DNA from: Zygnema cylindricum
Lineage: Eukaryota; Streptophyta; Zygnematophyceae; Zygnematales; Zygnemataceae
Direction of reading: 5' to 3'
Assembly: GCA_037447655.1 (NCBI GenBank)
Contig: JBBHKE010000777.1
Location: 1 to 64,000 of the forward strand
Length of the DNA stretch: 64,000 bases
Made by a program: the position numbers and the translations under genes. Positions 23,390 through 62,826 of the stretch are shown here, piece after piece. The notes under the pieces are model-generated. The model saw only the letters and a list, made by a program, of their open reading frames with translations. It was not told the origin of the DNA and did no database searches. Every line of letters begins with the position of its first letter. Positions within the stretch are counted from its first letter, which is position 1.

Positions 23390-23457
23390 TCCGAACTGAT
23401 GAGGAGATAAATAATCATAGAAAGCGCACTGGATCTAGATGTAGATTGCACGGTCCA

Positions 23458-23927: not shown

Positions 23928-23930
23928 ATC

Positions 23931-24346: not shown

Positions 24347-24723
24347 TCCGAATAAATACAGGACAAAGGAAGGTGGAGGGCGTCCTGTACGATAATCTGC
24401 ACAGCCATCGGAATCCGCGTGTATACACGCGGACGGCGAGCTCCCAAATCATAAGCTCCGAGCACGTCTAAATCGCGAACAAATGCCCAATATTCGCTTG
24501 TAGGTCCGGACGGGAGTGTCGTGGAAGAAAAGGTACTAGAGGAAGGGTTGCTCAAGGCCAAAAATTGTTTACAACTTTTTGTATGTCGGGCAATGCCGGC
24601 ACCGGTCGCGAAATGGTTATGACACCCGTTACATTCTACCCGTGTTGAGGCTTTTGTACGAGGTTTAGGTGGAAGAGGTGAACGAGGGAGAAGAGGCGAG
24701 GATGCACGGCCAGACATGGTCAT
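24058..24723 (-). pseudogene. N-terminal zinc-finger segment of the non-LTR element
   Basis: It starts at an ATG (24723). Residues about 30-50 form a C-x2-C-x12-H-x3-C finger (CNGCHNHF then RHTKSC), as found at the N-termini of target-specific non-LTR elements, where it binds DNA. The downstream part repeats itself because of the tandem duplication at 23931-24346. Confidence 0.65.
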
Positions 24724-24782
24724 TGAATGAGAGGGAGAAGCATGGGACGTGATAGAGAGAGAGGAAGGGGGAAATGGGAAAG

Positions 24783-25129
24783 TGCCTCGAGAAGCTCGGA
24801 TTTAATAGCGGCGACAACCGGATCAGAAATGGATTCGTGAACACGCGCAACTGATGTCGTAACAAGAGTGGAAAAAATCAGCGTGTCCTCGATAGCAGCG
24901 CGATTAAGAGAACGTGATGCATCCAAAAGGGACCGTTGGAAGGCGAGCTCACCATCTTAAACACGGGGAACCACGGCCGCAAGAATAGGAGTGTCCCCAG
25001 CCAGAAAACGAGAGACAATAGTGGAAGCAACAAGGCACCAACTTCCCAAATAGGCGGCTGGAGCAACACGCGCCGTCGAGAGTAAACCCAAACCGCCAGC
25101 CGAGACAGGAAGAGAGGTTTGGATGCGAA
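24783..25129 (-). mobile_element. fragment of a second copy of the non-LTR element
   Basis: It aligns with 22281-22624 of the full element (GCCTCGAGAAGCTCGGATTT through AACCGCCAGCCGAGACA), with scattered substitutions. It is in the same orientation and truncated at both ends. Confidence 0.85.
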
Positions 25130-31465: not shown

Positions 31466-33509
31466 TTACCGATGCAAAATGATGTTATTTACATGTAGTT
31501 TCACAGAACAACCGCTCTTTTCAAATTCTAGCTCTCGGAGAATTCTCGATATTTCTTCAAAATTGTTCAAATATGTCCGTATGGACACATGATTTAACCA
31601 CAAGCATCGCTTCTCCAAGTGAATTAAGCCAGATCCCCTGATGTTACTATTTTCAATTTTTACTCTTTGAAGTCGTGAGCAAAAGGAGAGATATTCAAGT
31701 CCTCTGTCTGTTATACCACCATCATTTAGACTCTCGTAAATCAAACTCAAGGATCGCAAAAAAGGAGAGTTTTCCTTCAAGAGAAGGAGAGCTTCATCAG
31801 TGAAATCTTCTACTGGCCTGCGACAAAATAAACAACAACAGAAATATCAGAAAAAATAAATATAGATAAGAGGACTGCATGAGTCTAACTAGCTATTGGT
31901 GATTGAATATTACGAACACGGTCATGAAGTAATAAGGGCCACACATTGACATTACCAAAACTTTCAAGTGATGTTGTTAACAGCTCGCCATACAATAACT
32001 ACATACCTCTCGTTGTATTTTGAGATATAAAGAATCATGTGCTTCAATTCGATAAAATATATCAACACGACAAAAGAATTAATGAACATCAAGGCACTCA
32101 CAGATGCACTTCCAATTTTTGTAAGCCCTTCACTCCACTCAAAATTCGTCGGAGAGTTTCGTTTCCCACCGGTGCACAAAGATCTTCCAAATTAGGACAT
32201 CCACTTAGAGCTTCGAAAGCTCGACATAACAACGGATTTGGATATGTGGATTTGGATATATAGGATTTAGATTTTGCATTCCACAAATTATGTGAAACTT
32301 CCGGAGTAGCGTACAAATTGAAAGCAGCTTGTACAAACCTTCATAAGAGGTCTCTTCGACCGGAAATGTAACAGTGAATTCTATTTCCTGCAAGAACTGT
32401 ACTCTAATCGAGAAATTTTGATTGAATCCAAAAACGTACCTAAAATCTTCAAATTTATTCCTTGAAAAAAAATCCAAAACTGCATTTTCATTATCCATAT
32501 TTTGGTCCCTTCCATGCCTAGTTCCCTCAACAGACAAGATTCTCTCTACTATGGCTTTGTACACTAATGGTTGGTTATCGCGCAATTGGATAGAAATAAT
32601 TCCATGGTTTTTGGAAATATATTCTGCAAAAAGGTAATCGTCTGATACTGAAAAGAGAGATAGTGATCGGAGAGTAGTACAATGAGAAAGTGTCGTAAAA
32701 ATACTTTCATGTACCTCTGAACTGAATTCCAAAATTTCCAAAGGAGATCCTGCCCTAATAATTGCTTGAACAAAACAACACTCAATATCACCCTCAATAG
32801 ATCCACTATCCAGACGTAACTCACGAATACTTTTAAGTTTTAAATTTGGAAAGCTTGGATCTTGAACTGAGTCATCGAGTTCAAAAAGATCATCAGCGAC
32901 TAAAGATGTAAGAGTAGCACATTTGATGATAACTGGCATCAGATCATTTATAACACGTCCATTATCGCGAAGAGATAGTCGACGAAGTCCAGAAGAAGAA
33001 TTGAAAAGGAGATCGTTCAAACCATTATTGGTGAGTGAACTCACGCTACTTGTCAAAGTTAAATCTTGTAAGAGCTTGCAACCTTTTCCTATCTGCGCTG
33101 CAATTTGGTTGTTAAGAAAACAATTATGAAGATGCAATATTCTCAGTTGAGACAAATTTTTAAGAGAAGCTATATCTTTCGTTTCTATTTGAAAATCAGG
33201 TTTAAGGGAGAGTCGAATTTTCAAAAATTGCAAATCAGAAAGTTTAGTAAAGAGGACTGTAAAAAGGGAATCACCAAGTTTTTTCGATACTGGACTAAGA
33301 TCAAGTTTTGTTAAACTAGGCAAAACTTGAGGAATTTCAAGGAGCTTGTCGATTCGTCGACATGTGATTCGCTTAGCGGAATCAAGTACGGTTCCTCGGT
33401 GTAATTTGGAAACTAGTGACAGGCTAATTAAGTCGAAGTGGTCGTCAAGGAAAGATATGATGCAAGAGAGGAGATAGGTATCATGGACTACTTGCACCGT
33501 AGAATCCAT
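31466..33509 (-). pseudogene. F-box-like/LRR gene copy, frameshifted
   Basis: Exon 1 runs 33509-32102 and exon 2 runs 31817-31466, joined by a 284-bp GT-AG intron at the same codon as in the intact gene. Exon 1 starts at an ATG aligned to the intact copy (MDSTVQVVHDTYLL against MESKELVVHDPYLL). It has the F-box-like helix region (SCIISFLDDHFDLISLSL) and LRRs (LRILHLHNC, LTSLVADDL). Near 32228-32285 the frame changes inside a short tandem repeat (CCAAATCC units); the next frame continues with LCRAFEALSGCPNL to the donor. Exon 2 is intact to a stop at 31466-31468. The frame upstream of 33509 is (GGGAGA)n low complexity, not part of the protein. I call it a pseudogene, but a single-base assembly error would make it a gene. 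Confidence 0.85.
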
Positions 33510-33569
33510 GCTAGAAATGTGAAGACAAAATACAACAAAGAAAAGAGAAAACAAAAAAATGATAAGGAG

Positions 33570-34124
33570 GTAGGGAAGAAAGGAAGGAGGAAGAGACAAA
33601 GAGACAGGGAAAGGAGAGAGAGATGGAGAGAGAGGGAAAGGAGAGAGAGATGGAAAGAGAGGGAAAGGGAGATAAGGAGAGGAGGGAGAGAGAGAATTAG
33701 GGATAAAGAGAGAGAGAATAGCAGCGAAGGTGTGGGAGGAAGTGCAAAGACAGAGGGAGGGAGGGAGGGGGGGGGAAAGGTAGAGGGAGAGGGCGGGAGA
33801 GAGGGAGATAGAGTGCGCGAATGAGAGGGAGAGGGAGAGACAAAGAGAGAGGGAAAGGGGGGCGGAGAAGAGGGAGAGGGATAGGGAGAAAGCGAGGGAG
33901 AGGGCGAGGAGGGGGAAAGAAAGAGGGAGAGGGAGAGGGAAAGGGAGGGGAACGTACGGGGGCCGGGATAGGGAGAGGGAGGAGGGGAGGGCGGGAGGGG
34001 GGAAGGGAGTGAGGTGGGGAGGGAGGGAAAGAGGGAGAGGGAAAGGGAGGGAAAGTGGGAGGGATGGATTCACGGAAGGGAGGGAGGTAGGTAGGGAGGG
34101 AGGAAAAGCGGCAAAGGGAGAGGG

Positions 34125-38565: not shown

Positions 38566-38978
38566 GGTTTTCTGTTTACTGATGCCTCACCTGCATACTG
38601 TTGAACGTTTATGGACTCCCATTCTATGAAATTTTGATTCAATTCTCCTCTCTTCTCCTCTTTATCTTGATTCTCGTCCACTACTCCTCCATCCTCCTCT
38701 TTTATCTTTACTTCTTCTTCACTGTCACTTTACTGTTGAGTATTATTGCAACACATACTAAATACTGTTGAGTATTATACGACACATATCGTACTATATT
38801 GAGTATCGTACCACTGTTTTCTGTTTTCTGCTGCCTCACCTGCATACTGCTGAACGTTTATGGATTCTCCTTCTATGAAATTTTGATTCACTTCTCCTCT
38901 CTTCCCCTCCTTATCTTGATTCTCGTCCTGTATTCCTCCCTCCTCTTTTATCTTTACTTCTTCTTCACTGTCACTTTG
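38566..38978 (+). repeat. duplicated 5' region of the F-box gene
   Basis: 38566-38731 and 38816-38978 are two copies of one segment (CTCACCTGCATACTG through CTTCTTCACTGTCACTTT), separated by ACTGTTGAGTATTA repeats. The second copy ends about 80 bp before the ATG at 39058, so the promoter or 5' UTR was duplicated in tandem. Confidence 0.85.
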
Positions 38979-39057
38979 TTTCCCCTCTTTCCTCTCTCTC
39001 CCTCGTTTTTTTATTCTCTTTCTTGTTCTGTCCTTCTCCTTTCTCCTCTTTTGAGCC

Positions 39058-41096
39058 ATGGAATCTAAGGAACTCGTAGTCCATGATCCTTATCTCCTCT
39101 CTCGCATCATTTCTTTCCTTAACGACCACTTTGACTTGCTTAATCTCTCACTAACTTCCAAATTACACCGTCAAACAGTACTCAGTTCTGTACAGCGAAT
39201 CACCTGTCGACGAATCGACAAGCTCATGGAAATACCGGAAATCTTTCCCAATCTAACGGATCTTGGTCTCAATCTGTCGGTGAAAAAACTCGGTGATAAC
39301 ATCTCTAATTTTGTCATTTCTAAACTGTCTCATTTGCAAATCTCGCAGTTTCGACTCTCTCCTAGGTCGGATGTTAAAATAAAAAGAACCGCGCTGGCTA
39401 GTCTAAAAACTCTGTCTCAATTAAGAGTATTGCATCTCGAACGTTGTTCTCTTGACGACCAAATTGCAAAGCAGTTAGGAAAAGGTTGCAAGCTCTTAGA
39501 AGATATAACTTTGAAATGCACGGAGGGTTCACTCACTAATAAGGGTGTGAACGATCTTTTTTTGAGTTCTTCTTCCGGACTACGTCGACTATGTCTTCAG
39601 GATAATGAAAGTTTTGAAGATGATCCAATGCCGATTATCATCAAATGTGCAACTCTAACATCGTTGGTCCTTATTAACGAACTTAACCTCGGTTCTTCGA
39701 TTGAAGATCCGAGTTTTCCGAACTTGAAACTGAATAGTATTCGCGAGTTACGAATCCTTGGTGTTATTCCGGACCATACAAGAGATTTTGATTTTGTCGG
39801 TTGTTTTGCTAAAGCGATTATTAGGGCAGGTTCTCCTTTAGAAATCGTGGAACTCGAGGTAATGGCATCCAAAAGTATTTTTGTGACACTTTCTAATTGC
39901 ACTACTCTCCAGTCGCTGCAACTGGCGGACTCGACATTGGACAAAGACCAGATTCGACAACTTTTTTCCAAAAATCTCAAACTTAGCGCTCTCGGGTTGC
40001 GCGATCCACAGCAACCTGAAGCGCACGAAGCAATGGTAGAGAAAATTTTGTTCGTTGAGGGAATCAGAAATGGAAAGGGCCAGAATAGTGATAATGAAAA
40101 TGCAGTTTTGGATCTTTTTTCAAGGATGGATTTTGAAAATTTTAGTTACCGCTTCGGATTTAACCAAAAATCCTCGAGTAGAGTGCAATTCTTACAAGAA
40201 ATAGAACTGAATTGTTTGTATCCAGAGACCTCCTTTGAAGGTTTGTACGAGTTGTTTTCAGTTTGTACACTTCTTCGAAAAGTTCGCCTGCTTATTGGTG
40301 GAGAGGAAGAGGAAGATCCAGAGGAAATTCCAGAGGAAGATCCAGATCCATTTCTATGTAGAGCTTTGGAGGCGCTAAGTGGATGTCCGAATTTGGAGGA
40401 ACTTCGGGCACCTTTGGGACACAAAATTCTCCAACGAATTTTGAGTGGAGTGAAGGGCTTACAAAAATTGGATATCTATCTGTGAGTGCCATGACATTCA
40501 TTAATTTTTTGTCTTTTTGTTGAATTGAAACACATAAATTCTTTGTATCTCGAAATTCAATGTGAGGTGTTGTAGTTACTGTATAACTCGTCCTTAGCAG
40601 TATGTGAAAGGTTTCTTAATGTCAATATGTTTCCTTCTATTTTTTCCACGACAAATGCTTTCGTTCAATCATTAGACTCTTGCTGTTTTTCAATATTAAA
40701 TTATGTTTATCTTTAATTTATCTTATGCTTGTCTTTTATTTACATTTTCGTTTATACTGTCGCAGGCAATTAGAGGACATCACCGACGAATCTCTCCTTC
40801 TCTTAAAGGAAAACTCTCCTAATCTGCAACGTTTGAGCTTGAATTACGAGTCTCCAAATGATATTGGAATAACTGACAAAGGACTCGAATATCTCTCCTT
40901 TTGCTCACAGCTTCAATCGGTTAGCATTGGGCATTATGAAGGCAATGGATCCGGCTTAATTCACTTCGAAAAGCGATGTTTTTGGTTAAATTTTGTGTAC
41001 ATTGGGCGAAATGTAAACAATACAACAGAATATTCCAAAATTAGTCAGATGTTGAAGAATAGAGGTTGTTATGTGTTTCGAGGTGTAAATCGCTAG
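39058..41096 (+). CDS. F-box-like/LRR protein, intact two-exon gene
   Basis: Exon 1 is 39058-40481 and exon 2 is 40766-41096. The donor is CT/GTGAGT and the acceptor GTCGCAG, with a phase-2 junction that keeps the frame, giving 584 residues. Residues about 8-45 look like an F-box (LLSRIISFLNDHFDLLNLSL, then SKLHRQTV). F-boxes bind Skp1 in SCF ubiquitin ligases. The rest is irregular LRRs (LRVLHLERCSL, LTSLVLINELNL, LQSLQLADSTL), with the last repeats in exon 2 (LQRLSLNYESP, GLEYLSFCSQLQ). An acidic run from a short tandem repeat (DPEEIPEEDPDP, about 40312-40350) interrupts the LRRs. The start is the first ATG after a T/C-rich leader and matches the start of the minus-strand copy. The substrate target is unknown. 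The F-box assignment is by pattern and moderately sure. Confidence 0.9.
40482..40765 (+). other. intron of the F-box-like/LRR gene
   Basis: A 284-bp GT-AG intron. The minus-strand copy has an intron of exactly the same length at the same place (31818-32101), although the sequences have diverged. Confidence 0.9.
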
Positions 41097-43225: not shown

Positions 43226-43472
43226 AAAAAAATAAGAAACTGTGGAAACCCACACTAATTATGACTAGACGGCAACTTTACCAAACAGGCAGAGAAGTAA
43301 AATAGAACAAAAATACCCGAGCAATAAAATAAGGGTGCAAATCCACATTATTTGTGGTGAAATCCAGTTTTGATCAAAGGGGCAAAAAAAAAAAAAAGAG
43401 GTCAAACTTTGATAAAAAAATGTCATGAGAAGCTTTTGAGAGTAGAAGTGTCCTTGAAACCATACTAAAATC

Positions 43473-44361
43473 TAGTGTTGTGTATCGGTTAAAAACTTAT
43501 CGCGATAACACCGATACCGATAGTTATCGGTTATCGAACGGTCAGAGGTTTCGATATATCGTTTGAGACTAACAAATTCCATATCGGCGTTAACTTAAAA
43601 ATATATAGTATGCATACAATAGTACTTTATAACATACTGTATTATTTTATTGATTTTATATAGCGTGGCATGCCACATATAAAAATCTGTTCCGTTCCCG
43701 TTTAACTGCAATTTCTTACGGACAGCGCAGCACATAAACGTTGGCCGGTTAACTGAACAGAAATTTTACGGCAACGTACGGGATTTTACTGACAAACTGG
43801 TGAACATGGAACTGGAAAAGGCGGACACAAAAGCACAACAGACGCAAAATAACATTCTGCGCGCCACCGAAATCGAACGGACGACTTGGAATGAGAAAAC
43901 ACGAGTGGACGGGCCAGCGTGAGCGCTGCCATCCCGGAATGGCTCTTTTGGCAGCTTATGCCAAAAAAGCTGACAGTTTGACACTTGGCAGGTCCCCAGT
44001 GGATCTCAAGGAATAAAGGGACAAAGCCATGGCGTCGGATGTGAAAGGTGCATTGTTTTTACTGGATCCGTATCAAAACCGAACAGATCTCATGGCGGCT
44101 ACTGTACTTTCTGTGCTTGTACACGTCCAGGGAATAAGACGTATAGTTGAGTGTACAGGTCGTACATTTATATGTACGTCCCGTATAGTTATTGCCAATA
44201 GTTATCGTTATCGGCATTATCGCCGATAATTACCCGATATTATCGGCTACTTATCGGCGATAAGACTGATGTCGATATATCGAACCAATATACCGATTAT
44301 CGGATACCCGAAAAAAGGCCCATATCGGTTATCGGCAAATCCTTACCGATACACAACACTA
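43473..44361. mobile_element. hAT-like non-autonomous element H1
   Basis: An 889-bp element has terminal inverted repeats TAGTGTTGTGTATCGGTTAA and TTACCGATACACAACACTA, and a perfect 8-bp target-site duplication CTAAAATC (43465-43472, 44362-44369). The 8-bp duplication and short termini fit the hAT superfamily. Subterminal regions are dense in CGATA/TATCG words on both sides, as expected of transposase-binding motifs. No transposase frame is present. The central part is shared with H2 and contains short frames of unknown origin (MASDVKGALFLLDPYQNRTD). Confidence 0.9.
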
Positions 44362-44654
44362 CTAAAATCACACATTTTAACCCAAGATTTAGCGAATTGT
44401 ACCCATACACCTAATGAATGCCCAAAAAGTTACCAATTTGACCCATAATTGTGACAACTTTTTCAAACCATAGTTTAACAGTTTTATTTTTTAGGCGACA
44501 CTATTATGAAACTCATAGAACTGGTTACATCCTTATTTTCTAGTTCGGAGACTTGGACATTCCAAGAACAATCATAGATATAAAATGCGATAGTAAACCT
44601 CGAATGTAGTGCATATTTTATGTTTTGAACGTACAATAATAATTACGACATATG

Positions 44655-45010
44655 CAAGCTCAACGGTTTCATGCACCTGTTAACTATTTCCGGTTTCCCC
44701 GCTTGGAAGGCCGTGTCGACCACAGTCACAGGCAATCAGGAAGTCTTGAAAGTTGAAACAGAGTTCGTTTCGTACTTTTGCTTATGGCAAGTAATTGTTA
44801 TTTTGACATCGTACTTTAAAATAAAGATCGAACAAATTAATCTACTCATAGAAATTCGAACGAAAAGGTTTTCTCTTGTAATCTTCGTACAGTGTACATG
44901 CTGCATTCTCACCGTCCTTACGCCAGTAAGCGAATCAAACTAAACGGTATATCTTTTTGTACAGGAGCAACTGCTACGCTTGGGATTAACGCTTTAACCT
45001 ATAAGGCCGG
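44655..45010 (+). repeat. dispersed repeat R, copy A, left part
   Basis: CTGTTAACTATTTCCGGTTT through CGCTTGGGATTAAC aligns with 60470-60824. The repeat is then interrupted by element X1 and resumes at about 46010. Confidence 0.8.
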
Positions 45011-45809: not shown

Positions 45810-46009
45810 GACACTACGGCAATCAGTAAGCGTATCCGTACATTTACTGTAGTCGCTGTCCGTCCAAAAGAGACAGTCAGCACGTCAAGACTCATTTTGA
45901 AAAGAAAAGACCGCTACGTGTCACACATACGTCCGTAGTCCATCGCAATTCAATGCTACAAAAACGACATGCGAACTGAAACTCAAAACGACAAAAACTG
46001 AAAGTGCGA

Positions 46010-46780
46010 AACGTACAAATAACGTACAAATAGCGTACAAGTCAAAACTTTACGAAGCGATTCCGGCCGTACACTAAAGACGATTGCTGTCCACTTTCCA
46101 ACCGTACGATACTCACTATAGCTGTACGAATCCGTTACAGTACAGTGACGGATTCTGACGATTTCGTCGTTTGGAATTATTGAAATATTTTGACGGCGAA
46201 CTAAATTATAATGAGTCATTAGTACGGTTTCACTTGTACACATTCGATCACGTGTGTGCACTATTTTCACGCACGAAAAGAGCTCCGCCGTACAACCGTT
46301 ATTGACTGGTAAAAAAGCCGCTCCATTTATTTTGTCTTTTTTGACCGACAGGACTCAAAGAGACTCCCGCCACAGAGAGCTTCCCATTTTCCATTACATC
46401 TCGGCCGTCCAATGAAAACGCAATTTTTCTTGCTTCAAAAAGTGCAAATGAAACTGCTTACGTGGACCGCATGCGTGTTCGAATGCTGTCTTGATGATGA
46501 CGTGGCGTCAATCTATACCCTACAAAAAAACACATGTCCAATTGTGGTTCATCAATTACAGAGTTGCACGATATTAGCGAACACAAAAAAAAAAAAGAAG
46601 ACGTGCAACAGGTTTTCGTTCGCCCAAAAAGTACAAAGGACTGAAAACAGTACATATTATACAAAATGTACGGTTATGTACTGTAGCGTGCACATATTCT
46701 GGCTACAAGACAATAATTTGACCAATAAGAATTGTGTTATCTCGAACCATTACTACACAAGACATGACTGACAGCGGGCT
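46010..46780 (+). repeat. dispersed repeat R, copy A, right part
   Basis: ACAAATAACGTACAAATAG through CATATTCTGGCTACAAGAC aligns with 62090-62800. The longest plus frame (119 codons from 46412) also exists in the other copy but is cut differently, so I do not call it a gene. Confidence 0.8.
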
Positions 46781-47235: not shown

Positions 47236-47326
47236 ATGGTGGTCGCGAGGACCATGAGGAATACGATGCTGCTTTTCTTGTGCCACGTGGCACCCACCTT
47301 GGTTGCATCCATCTATGTAGGAGACG
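47236..47326 (+). other. LRR gene exon 1: signal peptide
   Basis: Thirty codons plus one base, with basic residues (VVARTMR) then a hydrophobic core, then GTAATA as donor. A second in-frame ATG lies five codons later. Confidence 0.8.
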
Positions 47327-50300
47327 GTAATAATCTCCACCCCTCTCCGCTCTCCCTTTCGGACGAGCTCGTTCTCCCGTCTCCGTTCGCACGTGTGAAG
47401 CATCGCTCTGATTGGCTCCCGTGCGGCCTCTGCAGGCGCGGCGCTGTGGGCGATGCGGAAGGCCATCGAGAACAAGGAGGCGTTCGCGCTGCCGCGATGC
47501 GGAGGGCCCGTCGGATGCGACGCCGACGGCCGAGTGTACCGGATGTGAGGGGATTGTGATTGTCGCTGCGTGCACTCTCTGCTGCGACGCGCTTTTTCAT
47601 CCGCACTGAATTTCGCACTGAAAACGCACTGAAGTTTTACTCGGATTGTCACTGCGTGCAATCTCTGCTGCAAAGAACCCGCACTGAATTTCGCACTAAA
47701 AAACCGCACTAAATTTTTACTCACATTGTCACTGCGTGCACTCTCTGATGCGATACGTTTTCATCCGCACTGAATTTCGCACTGAAAACCGCATTGAATT
47801 TGTACTCACAGACTGGTCGGATTCTCTGCCGATGCGCTATATTGTTTTAGGATTTTTTACGGTTTTTTAGGATTTTTTTACATGCAGATATTTAGATAAT
47901 AAAGTCCTGAGGGGGAAAATTGCGCCGGAGATTGGCAACCTCACAAAGCTACAGGAAGTGTGAGTAGATGCTGGGAGGGGAGATATTTTCCATATCATAT
48001 GATATTTTCTTTTTCCTTTGGAAAAAAGGAAGTAAAGCAAATGAATATTGAATGATTGTGGTAAAAAGCATCTGAGATTTGCATTATTGACTTTTTATTT
48101 CTTTTCATTTTTGTTTCAAAAAATGGAAAGGGGTAGGGGGAAAAGGAGAGGTTCTTATCATATGTATTTTTCTTTTTGACTGTTTGTGTCTTTTGTAAAT
48201 GCTCCAAGTCATCCCCTTCGTTTGAAAAACCATGCAAAAATTAAAAAAACTATGGGGAGTTTTATATTATTGGCCACTTTAATATAATAGACAAAAAAAA
48301 CACAAAGGTTTATGAGGGGAGTAGGGGGGGATGTTGGGGATTTGGTAAGTCTTACAAGAGGAAATCATAACAATGTATTTATTTTGCAAAAGAAATTGCA
48401 TTTTTAAATCTCATTATAACTTTTGTTGGTAAAGATGAAACATGTCACGTAGGCTTGTGTTACATATTTTAGTTTGGAAAAAGGTAAGATGGGGGAGTGT
48501 CATGTCCATTGTTTACAATTGGAAATTCATCATAAATTACGCATATTCAATTTTAGGAAAATTCATCATAAATTATGCATATTCAATTTTAGGAAAATTC
48601 ATCATAAATTATGCATATTCGATTTTAGGAAAATTCATCATAAATTATGCATATTCAATGCTAGGAAAATTCATCATAAATTATGCACATTCAATTTTAG
48701 GAAAATTCATAATAAATTATGCATATTCAATGTTAGGAAAATTCATCATAAATTATGCATATTCAATTTTAGAAAAAATCATCATAAAATATGCATATTC
48801 AATGTTAGGAAAATTCATCATAAATTATGCATATTCAATTTTAGGAAAATTCATCATATATTATGCATATTCAATTTTAGGAAAATTCATCATAAATTAT
48901 GCATATACAATTTTAGGAGTCTTATGTTATATAAGAGCCCTATAAACGTACATAGCACAGTCCATACTAAAATTTTCTTAAATTTTTTATATTTGGGTCC
49001 AAATAAATCGGAGTCATTTAGAAATGGAGGGGTTGATGGTGAGGATGACGTCACAGATATCTACATAACAACCAGTTGAGTGGAAGCATTCCATCGTCCA
49101 TCGGTCAACTGACAGAACTCTATATTTTGTAAGACTTAATTCTACACAAACCCAATTGCTATTTCTAAAATGGGGTATAATTTCCTCAAAAATGGTGCTT
49201 AATGGCAATGAATGTGTTGGCACAATTTTAATTTTTGAAGTTACTATTTTTTTTGCGCGATAAAATAAGAAGATCTATTGTACGAGGGATGATTTTTACT
49301 AGGACTCACCTAAATACACTCCTTATTTTGGGGGACATTAGGAAAGGGGATGTATTTTATGTCATTTGGGAAAAAAAAAAAACAAGTGAATGGATAATAG
49401 ATAAAGATGGTAAAAACCAGCTGAGGTTCACATTTTTTTTTTTTTTTTGCTCGTTAAAACAAAGGGTGGTGGGGGAAAAAAAGGGAGATTTTTATCATGT
49501 ATTTTTTTTTTGACCATTTTTTGTAAATGTACTATTTGTGAGGTTTGTCTCATATGACTCATTATTGAGATGAACAAAAGAGTACAAAGGCTTATGAAGG
49601 AGGGGGGGGGGCAAAGGGGTACGGGGAGGGAAGGGAGTGTTAGGGTGGGGTAAGGGGGTGTTGGGAGGTGCTAATGGGGTGCTATTTTGAAAAGGATAAA
49701 TTTATTAAACACTGAGCAAGAGAAAATTGTATTTTTTAATCCTCATTATTTACTTGGGTTTGCAAATGCTGTTCCATAGTTCAATTTGAAAATATGGTGA
49801 GGGGTGTGGATTCTGTCATTTACAATTAAAAATTTGTCTTATGTAATGAATATTTATTTTGATGAGTGTAAATTGAGATTAGAGGACTACAAATGTACGT
49901 AACAAGAGTTTATCTTATTTTTTATTTAGTTTTTAATAAATTGGTCCAAAGAAATTAAAAAGCATTTAAAAGCGGGGGGGTTAATGGGGTTAATGGGGTT
50001 AATGGGGTTTATGGGGTTTATGGGGTTTATGGGGTTTACGGGGTTTACGGGGTTAATGGGGTTAATGGGGTTTATGGTGTCACAGAAATTTAAACGGTAA
50101 CCAGTTGAGTGGAAACATTCCATCGTCCATCGGTCAACTGACAAACGTCCAAATCGTGTAAGACTAAATTCTACACAAAACTAATTGTTATTTTTAAAAT
50201 AGGGTAGAATATCCACAAAAATGGTGTTTAATGGCAATGAATGTGTTAGCACTTTTTTTTTTGTAAGTTACTCATTTTTTTGGCGCATGAAATTATGAAT

Positions 50301-52320
50301 ATCGATTGTTTGTGGTTAATTATTTATAGGAAAACATATGCAGTGTTAAGATCTACCAAAATTTTTAAAATTGATAAGTGACGGAAGGATAGTACAGGTG
50401 AAAGGCGAGGGGGAGGGAGATAGGGAGTGGGAGGCGAGAGGGCAAGAAGGGGATAGAGGGGGGGTGAAGGAGAGAGAGGGAGGGGGGAGCCAACTTTAAC
50501 ATTGTATTTAATGTGGTTGGGGAGCTTAACACCACACCCCAACCCCCACTCCCTACATTCTCCCCCCTCCCTCACAATCATATTTAGAGTGAGAAAAAGA
50601 CGCTTAACCTCACCCCTCACACAAAAGATATTCCGTGTGACCAGGGAAGTTACCCTCACCTTCCCCAAACAATATTTAGTGTGACGGGGGAGCGTACTTA
50701 AACCCCTCCCCCAAACCATATTTATTGTGATAAGGGTACATATACTTACCCCTCTCCCAAACCATATTTAGTGTCGGAAGGGAACTTACCCTCACCTCTC
50801 CCCCAAACCATGTTTATCGTGACATAAGAAAATACTCTCACCCCTTAAATTATATTTAATGCACCAGAGGGGCTTACTCTCCACCTACACCTCCAACCAT
50901 ATTTAGTGTAGCAAGGGAGCTTTCTCTCACCCCTCTCCCTCTCACCCCTCTCCCGAAAAAAAAATAGTATGAATAAAAGCTCACCCTCTAACCTCTTCGA
51001 AAAGCTTATTTTTCACCCCTTCGTAAACGGCATTTAGTGTGATGGGGGAGGTTAACCTCACTCTTGAAACCAAATTTAGTGTGACAAGCGTACCCTCACC
51101 TCTCCCTCGAACCATATTGAGGGTGGTAGGGGAGCTTACCTTCATACGTCCCCCAAATTTTATTTACAATAACAAGGGGAACTTACACCCCCCGTAAACC
51201 ATATTTAATGCGATAAAAGAGCTTACCGCTTCCCCTCCCCTAAACCATATTTAGTGTGACACGGAAGCTTACCCTCACCCCTCCCACAAACTATATTTTG
51301 CGTGACACGGAGCTTTTACTCACCCTTTTCCAAACCATATTTAGAGATAAAAGACCCCTAAACCATATTTAGTGTGACGAGGGAGCTTACCCTAACGACT
51401 CCATCAAACCATATTTAGAATGACAGGTGGGGCTTACTCTCGCCCATTACCAAACCATATTTGGTGTGAGATGGAGGCTTACCCTCACCTCTTTCCTAAA
51501 CCATATTTAGTGGGACAAAATATTGTATTCTTACCTCTTCCTAAATATATTCCGCGTCAGTGTATCTTTACCCCTCCGCCATAAGTTTGGTAGGGGAGCT
51601 TAACGTCTTCCTTCCCCTAACCATATTTAGTGTGACAAGAAAGCTTGTTTTCACCTTTCCCCGAAAAGATATTTCGGATGATGGGGGAACTTACCCTCAC
51701 GTTTGCAAAACATACTTAGTGTGGGCGAGAACTTACGCCTTCCACCAACCATATTAAATGTGATTGGGGATCCTAACCTCAACATTTTCTTAAACCATAT
51801 TAGTATGACAAGGGAGTTGTCCATCACCCCTCTCGCAAACCATATTTAGTGACATAAAATTTAACCCTCATCCCTCCCTATACCATACTTAGTGGGGCAC
51901 GGGAGCTTTTAGTCATCCCTCGCCGAAATCATGTTTAGTGTGACAAATGAGCTTACCCTCATTCGCCCCCCCTTTTCCAATTTAGTGTGATGAACGAGCT
52001 TTCTCTCACCCATACCCCAAACCATATTTACGCTAACAAAGGGAGCTTACCCTCAACTCTCTCAAAATCATAATTAGTGAGATGCGAGAATTTACCCTCA
52101 TCCCTGCCTACACCATATTTATTGTGGTGTTCAAAAGCATTGAAACATGACAAGCGAGGGGAGACATTACCTCCATTTTTTCCACCTTCCTACCTCTCTC
52201 TCTCTTTTCTTTTCCTGCGAAAAAAAAACCGCCTTTTTTCCAATTTTTTTTTTTTAAATCGCCTGTTTTCCAACTCTTTTTTTACTTATGATATACAAAA
52301 CAAATACGTTACAAAAAAAC

Positions 52321-52353
<33 letters not shown>

Positions 52354-55300
52354 GTATATATATATATATCTATATATATATATCGAATAAACCACAATAG
52401 ATATAGATAGAGAGAAAAGAAAAGGGGTGAGCCTAGAGGTGTGATAAGCAAGATGCGTTGTTTTTAAATTTTTTGGAAACACATCCCATATTTCTATGTT
52501 ATAATTTGTTATTTCAAATGATCACTTGAGGGGTGATGTTGGATGTTTTTTTGATAGTTTTTTCAATGACAAATTGGTAAAAGCTCAAAATGTTGGAAAT
52601 TTATGTTAAGATTTTTTTTGTTAAATTGATTGATTTTTAGCGACACAAATACCAAAAACACAGGAATGATATAAACGCCGCAAACATGTGCAAATATTAA
52701 TTCGAAAACTCACCAGGCAAGCTTGTGGGGGGAGGGGGAACGGGAGGGGGAGGGGGAGGGGGAGGGGCAAGTTTGTATTCCACAGTTCAATTGGTGAAAA
52801 TGGTGAGGAGCTTGTCAATTCATTTTTTATGATTAAAGTGTTTTCAAAAATTTAAGTCATCGATTTTCACATGTGACGCTAGGTTGGAGCCTTTTCAATG
52901 TACAATCAAAACAATCATATTGATTTTTCCCTAAGTTTATAATATTAAGGTCCCAAAAAACAAGAAAGCATTTAAATTGGGGGGGGGTGTGATGGGTGAT
53001 GACGTCACAGGTATATAGGCAGCAACCAGTTAAATGGAAGCATTCCATCGTCCATCGGTCAAATGACAAACCTTCGAGAATTGTAAGACTTAATTCTTTT
53101 TTTTTTAGTATAGGGTAGAATGTCCTGAAAAAAGGTCCTTATTTGCAATGAATTTGTTGGGAAAGATTTTTTGTTTGAAGTTATTTTTGTGTTATTTTTC
53201 ATATTCAACACAAAAATTTTAACTTCATCTATTCCAAATCTTTCTAGATTCTTTAACAACATAGTTTAACCCGATGTAGGGGAAGAGGGGAGGGGAAAGG
53301 AGAGGGGGAGGGAAAGGAGAGGGGGAAAAGGGGGAAGGGGAGGGGAAAGGAGAGGGGAAAAAGGCGGACAGAAGCTTCCAAAACTATGGTTAATGTTGTT
53401 AGGCAGTTTAACCCCACACCTTTCCCTCTCTTTCCCACACCTCTATACCTTTCCTTCCTCCCCCCTCACCCCGGTTTGCATTTTTCTAGAAATAATAAAA
53501 CATTCAAAAAAATACCGAAAACCAAAACAAAATACAAAAACATTAAAAAAAAAATGAAATCCCGTTGCACGCAAGATTCCCCAAAATTTTCAAATTTTAC
53601 AAAAAAATTAACCAAAGGAAAATAACAATAACCACTCCCGCTCTCTCCTCCTCCCCTAAAAGAAATAGGAAAAAAAAACACTTGAATAAAACAAAAAAAT
53701 ATGAAAAAAAAGGAAAAGTAGGACTACCCTCTTTCTTTCGTTTATCTGTTAAAATATATAAGAAAAATACCTTACGAAAAAAAAAACAAATTACAAAAAA
53801 CTCAAATAAACCACCATAATGATTTAAAAAAAACAAAAAAGACTTGAATTTTACCCTCCCTTACTCCCCTCGTCCCCTTCCTCCTAACGCCTCCCAGGAA
53901 CCCATTTTTGAACCCCCTAAATTTACCCTCTCCCTTTACCCTCATATCTCTCCCTATACCCTTTTATTTCTCCCCTTGTCTCTCAACCCTCGCGTGTCTC
54001 CCCCTTTTTTAAAAATTTGAAGCACTAAATAAACATAAAATTTAGCGGCATTTAATGTTGTATTTTCCAAAATCTAAGAATACATGGGATATCTCCACGC
54101 TATAGTTCTGTTTTTGAAAAAATAATAAAAAAAGTGTTTGAGGGGTATGTTGTATATTTTTGATGGTTTTCTCAACCACAAAGTTATAAAAGCTCAAAAT
54201 GCTGAAAAAAAAATAAAATGGATTTAATCAACACAAAATCCAAAATAAATAAATAAAATAATTGTCGCTAACACGAGTCTTTATTAGACATCTGGAAGCA
54301 TATCATCGGAAAATATATCCTCATTTATTGAAAAACCAAGATGGAGGGTATCTAACCCATTGGTTACGATTTAAAACTCAACGTAAATTACAGTTTATCG
54401 GTTTTCTCGAGTGTGAAGCTAAATTATAGCCCTACCCAATGTTCATAACAATAGTCCATATTCGTTGTTTTTTTAATTCCTTATATTCCGGGCCAAATAA
54501 ACAAAAATTAAGAGGTTAAACAAAAATTAAGAGGTTGATGGGGTGGATGGATGGTTTTCCAGTGGGCTGGATAACAACCAGTTGAGTGGAAACATTCCAT
54601 CGTCCATCGGAAACCTGACAAACCTTCTTTACTTGTAAGTTTAAATTTCACACATGTCATTTACAAAATGGGGTACAAAATGGGGTACAGTTTTACCCCT
54701 CCTCTCCCCTCCCCTCCGATCATATTTTGAGTATTGGTAAATATTACACTGAATATAGTTTGGAGGAGGGATGAGGGTAAGCTTTTTCGAACTCTAAATA
54801 TGATTGTGGGGGACAAGGGGGGGATACGGGGAAGGCGAGGGAGTGCGTGGGGTTAAGCTCCCCAACCATATTAATTATGGTGCTTATCTCTATGAATTGT
54901 TTATTTTTTCTAGCAAAATTTTAAAATACTACTTGAGGAAAGATGTCGGATATTTTTTCAATATTTTTTTACGTCACAAAAGCGATAAATTCTCAATATG
55001 TTGTAAGAAAAGGAACGATTTTCAATTTACATTCCGGTCCAAATAAACTTAAGGGCATTTAGAGGGTTGGCGAGTTGATGGGATGGATGACGTCACAATA
55101 AACTTAAGGGCGTTTAGAGGGTTGGGGAGTTGATGGGATGGATGACGTCACAGAGGGACATCTAACAACCAGTTGAGTGGAAACATTCCATCGTCCATCG
55201 GTCAAATGACAAACCTCCAAGTCGTGTAAGACAAAAATCTTCTCAAAACCAATTGTTGTTATTAAAGTGGATTATAATTCCCTCGAAAATGGTGCTTCAA

Positions 55301-57569
55301 GGCAGTAAATGTGTTGGGTTAATTTTATTTTTTTGAAATTTCCTACATTTTATGTTATTTATCAATTTAGTACAAAAATTTGTTGTTATTAAAATGGATT
55401 AGAATTTCGTCGAAAATGGTGCTTCATTTCAATAAATGTGTTGGGTTAATTTTATTTTTTTGAAATTCCTACATTTTATGTTATTTATTACTAAGTACAA
55501 AAATTTTAAGCACAATGTTCAAATATTCCAAAACTTTATAAATTTGATAAACAACACAATTTAACACGATGTAGAGGGAGAGTCAGAGGGGAGGGGAAAG
55601 CAAAGAGAGGGGGTAGAGAGATAGGAAGAAAGGAGACCGACGCTCTCAATACCAAAGCTAATGTGGCTAGGGAGCTTAACCCCAAATTTCCCACCTCACC
55701 CCTCACCCCTTTTCCCCAAATTTCCTCACCTCCCCTATTGGGTGACTATCCCCTCACCCCTCTTTGATGGGGTGGATGACGTCACAGGTGGCTACACGAC
55801 AACCAGTTGAGTGGAAGCATTCCATCGTCCATCGGAAACCTGAAAAACCTTCAAGTCTTGTAAGACTAAAATCTACTCAAAACCAATTGTTGTTACTAAA
55901 ATGGATTATAATTTCCTCGAAAATGGTTCTTAATGGCGATAAATGTGTTGGTATAAGTTTTATTTTTTTTAACTTCCTATTTTTTTATGTTATTTATCAT
56001 TCACAACAAAAAAATTAAGCACGATGGTTAACTATTGCGAAGCTTTTTGAAATTTGATAAAACAACGCAATGTAAATCAATTTCATAGGTACGTCATGCG
56101 TATGAAACGCATGGTAAAACAACCCAAAAAATAATGAATATTCGCAATTTTTTTTAGTAAATACGTTGTCCATAAAATGCGTTGACTGAATTTGACTTTC
56201 GCCAAACTGTGACGTAACAACAAGGTCGGTCGGGTGAAAAATAACTAAGTCAATTCGATTTTGTCATTTTCGTCCGTTCGATGCAATATCGACACTTTGT
56301 GTAAATAAAAATGTCTAGCAAAATGAAATCGCGATTTCATTTCGTCAAATATACGCCGTCAAATATATTAATTTCGCCAAAACTAATGAGTAATCGTCTT
56401 AAAACTCGTCAAATTTCGCACATCACTATCACGAATTTTACGAAAAGTCCAAAATCGTGAAAAAAATACTACATATTCGGATTTGAAAAACCAAAAATCA
56501 CGCGTGACGTAAGTATGCTCGATTTAAAGGGAGATCGCGAGAGGAAAGGAAGCCAAAAAGGGGTAAAGGAGAGAGAGAGAGGGGGAGGAGAGACAAACGC
56601 TCCTAATACCACAGTTAATGTGGCTAGGGAGCTTAACCTCACACCCCTTTTTTCCCCACATTCCCCCCACCCCCACAAGGAAGATTTTCCTCACCACCAT
56701 TAATAGTGTGGATTTTTTTACAGACGTCTATATAACAACCAGCTGAGTGGAAGCATTCCATCTTCCATCGGAAACCTGACAAACCTTCAAGAGTTGTAAG
56801 ACCCAATTTTTCAAAAAACCATTTTTTTTGTCACTAAAATGGGGTAAAAGTGTCCCTCTTAATGGTGCGTAAAGGCAATAATTGTACTAGCACCATTTTT
56901 TTTGATCGATTGTAGATGAATAATTCTAATTAGGAAAACAAATCACCTCCTCACTCTCCCTCTCGCTTTTCCAACTTTACTACCCGTTAAATTACTTTCC
57001 TAAATCTTTGGATTTTTCTTTTTAATTTGTTCTTGATTGACACCTTACTTCTTTTTTGTCATTCTCTATTTTTGTTTATGGTTTTAAAAAAATCAATCTT
57101 GTGCAAATGAAATAAAAAATTTAGAAATCGCTAACTGTTTTTTCTATTTTTGACGAATACTTTTGACGTTTTTTATGTTAACAGTCATATTGTAAACAAC
57201 TATATCATCGGGCCCCTTGTACAATTTACCCAACGCTCGTTGTGTATCGTTATTTTTGGAAATTGTCTATTTAACTTTAAAATCCCAAATGGATATTTAT
57301 GCGGATCCGACGTTCAACGAAGTAAAAGCGATTGTAACGCGTTTTGCGACGCGACGCAAGTCAGAGGAGTTTGCGGGGGAGGTGGTATCTGCTCTAATGG
57401 GACAAATGGGACACGTGTGTGTGCTTGCAACGAAGGCTACACCGACGCGGCGAGAAAATATACTTGCAAATGTACGATTTTTTGTGGCGATTTTGGGTGC
57501 GAGAAAAATGGATTGCCTTCAAAAATGGATTGCCTTTCAAAAACAGTAGAAATATACGTAAAAAAATAG
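47236..57569 (+). CDS. secreted LRR receptor-like protein, 11 exons
   Basis: Exons: 47236-47326, 47436-47544, 47888-47959, 49057-49128, 50086-50157, 53011-53082, 54563-54634, 55154-55225, 55788-55859, 56724-56795, 57185-57569. All introns are GT-AG and the reading frame is maintained at every junction, giving 386 residues if the last exon is read to its stop. Exon 1 encodes a signal peptide (MLLFLCHVAPTLVAS). Exon 2 encodes an LRR N-terminal cap (AALWAMRKAIENKEAF, a Cys pair, then CDADGRVYRI). Exons 3-10 each encode one plant-type LRR (for example NNQLSGSIPSSIG). Exon 11 encodes a Cys-rich, EGF-like end. The ATG has a GCCATGG context. The ectodomain should face the apoplast and bind a peptide or protein partner. 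No membrane helix or kinase is seen, so it is a receptor-like or secreted protein, or the kinase lies beyond an unplaced donor (57472) or the window. Confidence 0.85.
47436..47544 (+). other. LRR gene exon 2: LRR N-terminal cap
   Basis: The acceptor is CTCTGCAG and the donor GTGAGG. The phase is 1 in and 2 out. The reading ALWAMRK...LPRC...GCDADGRVYRI has the LRRNT layout (helix, Cys pair, then GRV leading into the first LRR strand). It is GC-rich compared with the introns. Confidence 0.82.
47558..47812. repeat. intron 2 minisatellite, 80-86-bp unit, three units
   Basis: Units start GATTGTCGCTGCGTGC at 47558, 47644 and 47724 and contain CCGCACTGAATTTCGCACTG. Confidence 0.88.
47888..47959 (+). 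other. LRR gene exon 3: first LRR
   Basis: 72 nt, phase 2-2. It reads YLDNKVLRGKIAPEIGNLTK and is the most divergent of the eight LRR exons. The donor is GTGAGT. It is the founder-like repeat joining the cap to the amplified array. Confidence 0.85.
48522..48917. repeat. intron 3 minisatellite, 36-bp unit, 11 units
   Basis: Eleven near-identical units of GAAAATTCATCATAAATTATGCATATTCAATTTTAG (first 20: GAAAATTCATCATAAATTAT). As 36 is divisible by three, two plus frames stay open over it with 12-residue periodicity. It lies wholly inside an intron. Confidence 0.95.
49057..49128 (+). other. LRR gene exon 4: LRR 2
   Basis: 72 nt, phase 2-2, after the acceptor TGACGTCACAG and before the donor GTAAGA. 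It reads YLHNNQLSGSIPSSIGQLTE. Confidence 0.9.
49974..50080. repeat. intron 4 G-rich 9-bp repeat
   Basis: About eleven units of GGGGTTAAT/GGGGTTTAT immediately before the exon 5 acceptor. Regular G4 runs could form G-quadruplexes. The unit resembles but is not the plant telomere repeat. Confidence 0.9.
50086..50157 (+). other. LRR gene exon 5: LRR 3
   Basis: 72 nt, phase 2-2. It reads NLNGNQLSGNIPSSIGQLTN. The acceptor is GTGTCACAG and the donor GTAAGA. Confidence 0.9.
50505..52130. repeat. intron 5 minisatellite, about 55-bp unit, more than 25 units
   Basis: Degenerate units of AACCATATTTAGTGTGAC, then A/G-rich GGGAGCTTACCCTCACC and a C-rich stretch repeat for about 1.6 kb. Single versions of the same block (TTAATGTGGCTAGGGAGCTT) occur in introns 6, 8 and 9, so the array is a local expansion of a shared intronic unit. 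Confidence 0.9.
52327..52385. repeat. (AT)n tract in intron 5
   Basis: Nearly pure TA dinucleotides, no gene. Confidence 0.9.
53011..53082 (+). other. LRR gene exon 6: LRR 4
   Basis: 72 nt, phase 2-2, acceptor TGACGTCACAG, donor GTAAGA. It reads YIGSNQLNGSIPSSIGQMTN. Confidence 0.9.
54563..54634 (+). other. LRR gene exon 7: LRR 5
   Basis: 72 nt, phase 2-2, acceptor TTTTCCAG, donor GTAAGT. It reads GLDNNQLSGNIPSSIGNLTN. Confidence 0.9.
55154..55225 (+). other. LRR gene exon 8: LRR 6
   Basis: 72 nt, phase 2-2, acceptor TGACGTCACAG, donor GTAAGA. It reads GTSNNQLSGNIPSSIGQMTN. The stretch just upstream (AATAAACTTAAGGGC...GATGACGTCACA) is tandemly duplicated, leaving one dead acceptor-like copy. 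Confidence 0.88.
55788..55859 (+). other. LRR gene exon 9: LRR 7
   Basis: 72 nt, phase 2-2, acceptor TGACGTCACAG, donor GTAAGA. It reads WLHDNQLSGSIPSSIGNLKN. Confidence 0.9.
56724..56795 (+). other. LRR gene exon 10: LRR 8
   Basis: 72 nt, phase 2-2, acceptor TTTTTTACAG, donor GTAAGA. It reads RLYNNQLSGSIPSSIGNLTN. Confidence 0.9.
57185..57569 (+). other. LRR gene exon 11: C-terminal cap and EGF-like module
   Basis: After the acceptor TATGTTAACAG the frame gives a last degenerate LRR strand (IVNNYIIGPL), a Cys-rich linker (GYLCGSD, SDCNAFCDA) and an EGF-like pattern C-x5-C-x9-C-x1-C-x12-C (CGGGGIC, RVCACNEGYTDAA). Two NGT sequons lie between the second and third Cys. The frame stops at 57567-57569, but a donor-like GTACGA at 57472, right after the last EGF Cys, may end the exon. 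The stretch beyond it (ATGGATTGCCTTCAAAA repeats) looks non-coding. Confidence 0.7.
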
Positions 57570-60469: not shown

Positions 60470-60824
60470 TAAATATAAAATTTCATGCATCTGTTAACTC
60501 TTTCCGGTTTCCCCGCTTGGAAGGCAGTGTAGACCAGAGTCACAAGGCAATCAGGAAGTCTCGAAACACTGAAACAGAGTTCGTTTTGTACTCTTGCCGA
60601 GTACGGCGAGTACTTGTTATTTTGACATCGTGTTTTAAAGTAAAGATCGAACAAATTAATCTACGCATAGAAATCCGAAAGAAAAGGTTTTCTCTTGTAA
60701 TCTTCGTACAGTGTACTTGCTGCATTCTTACCGTCCTTACGCCGGTAAGCGAATCAATCTAAACCGTACATCTTTCCGTACTGGGGCAACGGGTACGCTT
60801 GGGATTAACATTCTAACTTTTATC
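60470..60824 (+). repeat. dispersed repeat R, copy B, left part
   Basis: It aligns with 44655-45010. It is interrupted at almost the same point, here by MITE M copy 2, and resumes at about 62090. Confidence 0.8.
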
Positions 60825-62083
60825 CATAGTTTAAAAGTAGGTGAAAGTAGGCCCATACAATATGCCTATTGTGTGTAAAACATAGTGTTGTGTATCGGTA
60901 AAAAACTTATCGCGATAACACCGATACCGATAGTTATCGGTTATCGAACGGTCAGAGCTTCCGATATATCGGTCTGGGACCAACAAATTCCATATCGGCG
61001 ATAACCTAAAAAATATATAGTATGCGTACAATAGTACTTTATAGCATACTGTATTATTTTATTGATTTTGGCATGCCATGTATAAAAATCTGTTCCGTTA
61101 CAGTTTAACTGCAATTTATTACCGTAAACGCGGCGCATAAACGTTTGCTGGTTAACTGAACAAAAATTTTACGGCGACGTACGGAAATTTACTGAAAAAC
61201 TGGTGAACATGGAACTGGAAAAGGACGGCGGACACAAAAGTACAACGGACGCAAAATAACATTTTGCGCGCCGCCGGAATCGAACGGACGACTTGGAATG
61301 AGAAAACACGAACGGACGGGCCAGCGTGAGCGCCGGCATCCCGGAATGGCTCTTTTGGCAGCTTTTGCCAAAAAAGCCGACAGATTGACACGTGGCAGGT
61401 CCCTAGTGGATCTCAAGGAATTAAGGGACAAAGCCATGGCGTCGGATGTGAAAGGTGCATCGTTTTTATTGGATCCGTATCAAAATCGTACAGATTTCAT
61501 GGCGGCTACAGTACTTTCTATGCTTGTACACGTCCGGAGAATATGACGTACAGTTGAGTGTACAAACCGTACATTTATCTGTACGGTCCGTACAGATATC
61601 GCCGATAATTATCGTTATCGGCATTATCGCTGATAATTACCCGATATTATCGGCTACTTATCGGCGATAAGACCGATGTCGATATATCGTACCAATATAT
61701 CGATTATCGGGTACCCGAAAAAAGGCCCATATCGGTTATCGGCAAATCCTTACCGATACACAACACTAGTAAAACATACAATATGACCTTAAGACCCATA
61801 TTGTATTGGTCGCAAAAGGAAAAAAAATAGTAACAGGGTTGAGTTGCACATCGATCGATAGAGAATTAAACGTCATGTCTAAATTTTGAAAAACATTCGG
61901 ACGAAAAATTATTTTTCTGTGAGTTTTGAGGTATTTTTTTTTTTAAACCGTCAGGTTCGGACGATCGGACGGTCGCTGATCAAAGGAGCGATCTAAGAAG
62001 ATCACATGAAAAGCCCATAACACAACTTACTATAAAGGCGCCTACAAAAGGCCTACAATAGAAACGCCTACTTTTGAACTATG
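60825..62083. mobile_element. MITE family M, copy 2, split by hAT-like H2
   Basis: The ends CATAGTTTAAAAGTAGG and CCTACTTTTGAACTATG, and the internal words (GATCTTCTTAGATC, read in reverse), match the MITE at 8798-9103 in opposite orientation. The hAT-like element at 60883-61768 is inserted in it; without that insertion it would be about 365 bp. Confidence 0.85.
60883..61768. mobile_element. hAT-like non-autonomous element H2
   Basis: It is 886 bp, with the same ends as H1 (TAGTGTTGTGTATCGGTAA...), and a perfect 8-bp target-site duplication GTAAAACA (60875-60882, 61769-61776). It is collinear with H1 over its whole length with modest divergence. It has no transposase. The small frame around 61298-61546 is shared but broken in H1. 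Confidence 0.92.
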
Positions 62084-62089
62084 GATAGA

Positions 62090-62800
62090 ACCAAACGGAC
62101 AAATAACGTACAAATAGAGTACAAGTCAAAACTTTTCGAAGCCATTCCGGCCGTACACTAATGACGATTGTTGTCCGCTTTTCCAACCGTACGGTACTCA
62201 CATAGCTGTACGAATCCGCTACAGTACAGTAACGTATTCTGACAATTTCGTCGTTTGGAATTATTGAAATGTTTTGACGGCGAACATCCAAATTATAGAG
62301 AGTCATTAGTACGATTTCACTTGTCTACATTAGATCATGTGTGTGCACTCTTTTCAAAACGCATGAAAACAGCTCTGCCGTACAACCGTTATTGACTGGT
62401 AAAAACTAAAAAGCCGCTCCATTTCTTTTGTCTTTTTTTGACCGACAGGACTCAAAGAGACTCCCGCCACAGAGAGCTTCCCATTTTCCATTACATCTCG
62501 GCCGTCGAATGAAAACGCAAATTTTTCTGCTTCAAAAAGTGCAGATGAAACTGCTTACGTGGACCATATGCGTGATCGAATGCGGTCTCGATGATGACGT
62601 GGCGTCAATCTATATCCTACAGAAAAATACATGTCCAATTGCTGTTCATCAATTACAGAGTTGCACGATGTTAGCGAACACAAAAAAAAAAAAAAAAGAC
62701 GTGCAACAGGTTTTCATCGCCTAAAAAGTCAAAGGACTAAAGTTCAGAACAGTACTGTACGGTAATGTACTGTAGCGTGCACATATCCTGGCTACAAGAC
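62090..62800 (+). repeat. dispersed repeat R, copy B, right part
   Basis: It aligns with 46010-46780, including the CCGACAGGACTCAAAGAGAC and GATGATGACGTGGCGTCAAT words. Confidence 0.8.
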
Positions 62801-62826
62801 AATTATTTCGACCAATAAGGGCAAGG

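Follow-up and report, generated by a model that had tools for sequence, protein, structure and literature searches.

The genome of Zygnema cylindricum, a conjugating green alga from a sister group of the land plants, contains, within a stretch of 64,000 nucleotides (nt) that was analysed as a whole and is called the window below (GenBank assembly GCA_037447655.1, contig JBBHKE010000777.1, positions 1 to 64,000), a predicted gene in which each of a series of leucine-rich repeats (LRRs) is encoded by a separate exon of 72 nt that is entered and left in phase 2. We consider it rather probable that these exons specify a receptor-like protein whose strand residues, i.e. the residues exposed on the surface of the LRRs, have been diversified by tandem duplication of exons and, likely, by the exchange of short segments between them. 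The evidence consists mainly of the way in which the differences between seven of the exons are distributed: a near-constant core is bordered by strand codons that, in the copies with alignable flanks, differ more than the adjoining introns, and the site patterns in these exons conflict with one another. The earlier note on this DNA, from which the outline of the gene was taken, overlooked that the variability is concentrated in the strand residues, that the site patterns are mosaic and that the DNA likely comes from an alga.

Structure of the gene

The joined model (47236-57569, forward strand) comprises 11 exons with a total length of 1161 nt, or 386 codons and a stop, without an internal stop codon, and all 10 introns have GT-AG borders. 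Exons 3 to 10 are 72 nt long and in phase 2 at entry and exit in 8/8 cases; exons 4 to 10 form an array and are referred to as copies 1 to 7. The coordinates, borders, phases, single joined frame and 386-residue model proposed in the earlier note were all reproduced exactly. Since the forward strand of the window holds 83 stretches that consist of AG, 72 bases open in the frame of the array and GT, exon borders alone are weak evidence; the case for the LRR exons is made by their common LRR sequence, the joined frame and the conservation. When the eight LRR exons are combined into a nucleotide profile, the profile recovers all eight with an expectation value (E) of at most 2.4e-14, and its five further matches on the two strands of the window all have E>4. 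The repeat search delineates a 128-nt unit, i.e. exon plus flanks, that occurs in seven copies with 68-85% identity to the reference copy.

By codon scores trained on two open reading frames (ORFs) from the window, the predicted frame is the preferred one in all eight LRR exons. At the nine phase-2 exits (exons 2 to 10) a frame continued into the intron hits a stop one base beyond the exon, because donors of the type GTAAG or GTGAG are there read in phase 2. The model matches the Pfam family LRR_1 with an E of 5.3e-26 (85.5 bits, cut-off 20.6), and FLS2 is the top-scoring match of the LRR region among solved proteins. Judged by their sequence, the predicted LRR exons are taken as coding, exons 1 and 2 are likely to be so, and of exon 11 the first part is likely coding and the end uncertain.

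A conserved core and variable strand residues

The exposed residues of an LRR strand are the x positions in the motif xxLxLxx. All LRR junctions of the gene cut this motif at the first Leu, so that each strand is built from two adjacent exons; with the first Leu as the split codon, the exposed residues correspond to codons 22 and 23 of one exon and codons 1, 3 and 4 of the next. The seven blocks of the array had been described as near-identical, which holds for the core (codons 5-18, 81-98% identity per pair) but not for the whole exons (71-85%). In copies 5 and 6 the core varies through codons 10 and 16-21, and the near-constant part over all seven copies is therefore confined to codons 5-15, where four codons vary (7, 8, 10 and 13). 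Over the seven copies the core has 0.11 differences per site, versus 0.40-0.45 in the ungapped flanks (p=5.4e-10).

The opposite tendency is found at the exon edges. The five exposed codons differ at 0.33-0.80 of their sites, versus 0.11-0.28 for the gapped flanks, and are the more divergent in 21/21 pairs of copies, with p<0.05 by Fisher's test in 18 of these 21 pairs, which are not independent of one another. For copies 1, 2, 5 and 6, chosen because their flanks can be aligned (repeat family D6), the divergence of the 21 edge bases is 0.50, versus 0.22 in the upstream and 0.19 in the downstream intron (p=5.9e-5, splice bases excluded), and for copies 5 and 6 it is 0.43 versus 0.06 and 0.07 (p=1.3e-4). 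When a window of 13 nt is slid along the alignment, the divergence peaks at the exon start. In the comparison of copies 5 and 6 the first 13 bases are 0.62 different (38% identity), whereas the near flanks are 93-96% identical, and all amino acids encoded by the first four codons differ (G-T-S-N versus W-L-H-D).

Likely exchange between the exons

At the exposed codons the proportions of synonymous (pS) and nonsynonymous (pN) differences are both high (0.617 and 0.546, respectively), as compared with 0.130 and 0.090 for codons 5-20. Point mutation combined with selection on the amino acids would not raise synonymous change, whereas copying from diverged exons would; the joint elevation of pS and pN is therefore better explained by exchange between exons than by point mutation and selection alone. 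Classical positive selection is unsupported, as the exposed codons have about the same pN and pS.

The distribution of the individual differences points in the same direction. For instance, copy 3 equals copy 5 and copy 4 equals copy 7 over bases 48-62, whereas it is copies 5 and 6 that share their flanks. Among the 27 informative sites 59% of the site pairs are incompatible, and neighbouring sites are more compatible than shuffled ones (p=0.015; p=0.008 when copy 4 is left out). These conflicting site patterns fit exchange between the exons. In addition, several introns of the array have sequence modules in common, which fit tandem duplication of units that consist of an exon plus its intron.

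A possible route to new strands

Taken together, the shared intron modules suggest that exon-plus-intron units were duplicated in tandem, and the site patterns suggest that short segments were then exchanged among the exons. Duplication and exchange would have spread the core, and selection would have retained strands that differ. If plant LRR receptors are a guide, the concave face formed by the strands may bind a ligand, which could be a microbial molecule or one involved in mating or located at the cell surface. Provided that the gene is expressed, it would constitute a small inherited set of cassettes that varies what the predicted protein recognises.

The position of the introns adds a further source of variation. 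Because every strand is split over two exons, an exon that is duplicated, lost or skipped changes the strand at the new junction as well, and because all eight LRR exons are in phase 2 on both sides, any of them could be skipped with the frame kept. Indeed, the 256 products computed for the skipping of these eight exons are all open and distinct. A more elaborate scheme would have a frozen core of the LRR, about 35 nt in length, act as the anchor for exchange, a 13-nt box just inside each acceptor be replaced by templated copying, and the strands be spliced from two neighbouring cassettes, such that duplication, exchange and skipping together yield new binding faces; we regard this specific combination as distinctly unlikely.

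Weighing the explanations

Several observations weigh against diversification of the strands by duplication and exchange. At the exposed codons, which offer just 2.7 synonymous sites per pair, pN is not above pS. When all seven copies are compared, the edges differ at 0.51 of the sites versus 0.40-0.45 in the flanks; p is 0.073 without the splice bases and 0.019 when the exclusion is limited to AG and GT. The restriction to copies 1, 2, 5 and 6 was made on the quality of their flanks. The limits of the edges were fixed after the alignment had revealed the variation, yet they match the known strand register. In copies 5 and 6 the core is itself more divergent (0.14) than the flanks (0.06-0.07), and the test for exchange by the compatibility of neighbouring sites gives p=0.061 for copies 1, 2, 5, 6 and 7. 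Exons 1, 2 and 11 are less secure, since the codon scores give no preference to their predicted frame. None of the 120 matches listed, out of 6401 obtained with the model in protein databases, covers more than 79% of it (range 44-79%). Finally, the sample consists of one haplotype.

The simplest alternative would be a plain LRR receptor-like gene of plant type in which the middle exons were duplicated in tandem and the strand residues are merely those under the least constraint. Exons of 72 nt in phase 2 that encode one LRR are routine in the LRR kinases of rice, according to the available part of the study concerned (PMC3050792), and the near-equality of pN and pS at the strand codons and the strict edge test over seven copies agree with such a history. 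Sites without constraint should nevertheless not outpace the intron next to them, as the edges do in copies 5 and 6 (0.43 versus 0.06-0.07) and in copies 1, 2, 5 and 6 (0.50 versus 0.19-0.22), and we hold this alternative to be unlikely, though with a real chance of being correct. An array that is decaying or was never expressed, with exons that are intact only through recent duplication, is highly improbable: although exons 1, 2 and 11 do not look like coding sequence by their codon scores, the tail of exon 11 has no database match and repeated DNA lies on both flanks of the gene, a relic would not be expected to show a core at 0.11 between flanks at 0.40-0.45 over the seven copies, nor an in-frame codon score that is the best in 8/8 LRR exons. 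Moreover, when neutral substitution was simulated from the consensus at 8-15% per copy, between 2.6% and 0.1% of the runs left all seven copies intact, i.e. open in frame and with their splice sites.

Another alternative places the diversity at the level of the transcript: cells or conditions would join different subsets of the LRR exons, such that a single gene would supply many ectodomains. Each of the 256 subsets yields a distinct open product, and for brown algal ROCO genes the accessible passages of a study on these (PMC11378527) describe splice variants that differ in their LRR exons. Any run of exons in phase 2-2 permits such skipping, however, and no convincing conserved RNA structure was found in six intron flanks, so that we judge combinatorial splicing improbable. 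An intron structure that would control splicing was considered for these six flanks, in an alignment that omitted copy 4 (the flank of which aligns poorly), and was dropped: of its 11 pairs only one has a compensatory change.

The 3' end and the nature of the product

Diversified strands would be followed by one last strand in exon 11. Directly after the acceptor at 57185 the sequence HIVNNYIIGPL is read in phase, which is an LRR strand in the register of the array. A strand pattern that was defined only after exon 11 had been inspected occurs in the phase-2 frame behind 8 of the 3622 AG sites on the forward strand (those of six array exons, 57185 and one unrelated site) and behind 0/3581 on the reverse strand. 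The downstream exon had been called EGF-like: it does join in frame, but the match of its cysteine-rich stretch with EGF_Teneurin (E 0.0026, 18.2 bits) stays under the Pfam cut-off of 24.3, as does the EGF-like score obtained when the ORF of exon 11 is scanned by itself (18.4 bits). An ORF as long as exon 11 arises by chance on the forward strand in 5.5% of simulations, and the view that exon 11 is a real exon would rest on the strand in register and the cysteines, not on its length. Its last bases consist of a short repeated word and may be non-coding, and GT sites near its end may leave room for additional 3' exons. The tail gave no match at E<=10 in a search of about 5.8 billion proteins, in which seven candidates had words in common with it. 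A single-sequence AlphaFold2 model of exon 11, with a mean predicted local distance difference test (pLDDT) value of 53, was not used.

Up to E 1, 12 Pfam families match the model; neither an LRR N-cap family nor a ROC or COR family is among them. No kinase family was matched by the model in the Pfam scan, in which the downstream forward-strand ORFs covered were that of exon 11 and one at 61196-61543, and no membrane span is evident by eye in the 386 residues, the 3' end of which is uncertain. The predicted product is likely a secreted or membrane-anchored receptor-like protein. A bacterial LRR gene is rejected in view of the spliced structure and of a neighbouring gene of the AP2/ERF type with streptophyte relatives.

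Surroundings of the gene

This neighbour, a transcription-factor ORF in a single frame (13334-14926, forward strand) with a Gln/Ser-rich N-terminal part, has as its top match an unnamed protein that is 89% identical across 81% of the region searched. Among the best 120 of its 185 matches 17 are named Closterium, and the third is named Centaurea; some of the matches carry gene names that we take to be of the Mesotaenium and Spirogloea type. By these matches the window likely belongs to a streptophyte alga of the Zygnematophyceae, probably close to Closterium.

The LRR gene itself is bracketed by direct repeats about 16 kb apart (Table 1), which are 88-90% identical and partly rearranged in order. 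Inside the gene, a minisatellite with a unit of about 46 nt occupies 50500-52110 in the intron after copy 2, with related single copies in other introns at 53382, 55650 and 56607; a 36-nt tandem repeat is located at 48451-48990, and a 9-nt repeat (GGGGTTTAT/GGGGTTAAT, 49959-50107) reaches the acceptor of copy 2. Elsewhere, 8786-8942 has an inverted match with 61939-62096, and two inverted paralogous stretches, 31562-33611 (reverse strand) and 38964-41021 (forward strand), are 72% identical, with related pieces at 18382-18783. The forward copy contains an ORF (39055-40482) with F-box-like and LRR_At5g56370 matches that are both under the Pfam cut-off; the piece 32208-33701 of the reverse copy has no Pfam match. 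The window also carries broken pieces of an element of the Ty1/copia type (RVT_2, E 1.9e-33) and of a second element with a reverse transcriptase (RVT_1, 27.1 bits versus a cut-off of 29.6).

Table 1. Predicted exons of the LRR gene and other repeated or mobile DNA in the window
Feature	Position	Strand	Description	Basis
Exon 1	47236..47326	+	GCCATGG start context; hydrophobic leader, putative signal peptide	leader by eye; frame and GT donor checked
Exon 2	47436..47544	+	putative N-terminal cap with two cysteines (RCGGPVGCDADGRVYR)	by eye
Exon 3	47888..47959	+	divergent LRR, 72 nt, phase 2-2	profile, codon score
Exon 4	49057..49128	+	array copy 1, LRR, 72 nt, phase 2-2	
Exon 5	50086..50157	+	array copy 2, LRR, 72 nt, phase 2-2	
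Exon 6	53011..53082	+	array copy 3, LRR, 72 nt, phase 2-2	
Exon 7	54563..54634	+	array copy 4, LRR, 72 nt, phase 2-2	
Exon 8	55154..55225	+	array copy 5, LRR, 72 nt, phase 2-2	
Exon 9	55788..55859	+	array copy 6, LRR, 72 nt, phase 2-2	
Exon 10	56724..56795	+	array copy 7, LRR, 72 nt, phase 2-2	
Exon 11	57185..57569	+	last LRR strand, short LRR-like part, cysteine-rich EGF-like part, stop; 3' boundary uncertain	
Bracketing direct repeats	46009-46729 / 62093-62819; 43466-44382 / 60876-61788; 44667-44998 / 60481-60817			
Retroelement pieces	1167-5112 and 21483-24801	-		RVT_2, RVT_1 matches

Relation to other LRR systems

In the variable lymphocyte receptors of lampreys, which are assembled somatically, the LRR modules keep a conserved frame and differ at their concave residues; the exons of Zygnema, in contrast, are already ordered in one genome. 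Closer parallels exist at the level of gene structure, and for these we rely on the accessible parts of the papers cited. In the LRR kinases of rice, phase-2 introns split the first Leu of xxLxLxx and exons of 72 nt encode one LRR (PMC3050792). The layout that the earlier note had given for plant receptors, with LRR-sized introns in a common phase, agrees with this description in 8/8 LRR exons, and since the cut and the exon length are the same as in rice, the Zygnema gene has the layout of land plants. The earlier proposal of a plant-type gene with many exons and one LRR per phase-2 exon is accordingly well supported by the model, the LRR_1 match and the rice layout. Compared with the rice kinases as described there, the Zygnema array stands out by the near-identical core, the localised strand differences and the mosaic patterns in seven exons, and the Zygnema model by the lack of a kinase match, a tail that has no database match and an algal host. 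The passages of a paper on legume SERK genes that were available give neither exon length nor phase (PMC3061892).

The brown algal ROCO genes, again as far as the available text goes, have shuffled one-LRR exons of 72 bp in phase 2 with variable concave residues and splice variants, and site models indicate positive selection at sites 14, 16, 18 and 19, within the exon (PMC11378527). The Zygnema array resembles them in exon length and in phase, and an excess of concave-side differences over the intron is seen in it, but it shows no excess of nonsynonymous over synonymous change (dN over dS). Furthermore, the exposed residues in Zygnema are located at both exon ends, with the strand spanning the junction, whereas the sites selected in the ROCO genes lie inside the exon, and the latter genes encode ROC-COR GTPases, whereas the Zygnema model matches neither domain up to E 1. 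For LRR genes of Tetrahymena, long arrays of equal phase-2 exons of 90 bp are reported in the part available, as compared with 72 nt in 8/8 LRR exons of Zygnema, and unequal crossing over is proposed (PMC6564038).

With respect to the product, CpRLP1 of the likely related alga Closterium offers a comparison: an LRR receptor-like protein of 589 residues with a signal peptide, a membrane span, 10 putative LRRs and no kinase, which governs when protoplasts are released during mating (PMC5736609, in part). The likeness is one of description alone, and the membrane span of CpRLP1 has no evident counterpart by eye in the Zygnema model. The available passages of the Zygnema genome paper mention an expansion of LRR genes and not an exon array of this kind (PMC11096116), and no such array in a zygnematophycean alga was found among the titles and starts of abstracts listed, a coverage outside which most subscription papers fall.

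Diversification of LRR genes by means of exon cassettes is thus described, in the parts of the literature available, for brown algae (PMC11378527) and ciliates (PMC6564038). Should it also be at work, with the exon register of land plants, in the algae nearest to them, cutting the LRR strand in phase 2 may in itself be a means of creating new binding faces, and the locus, if our reading is true, would allow a test of how the surface receptors of the plant lineage gain their specificities.

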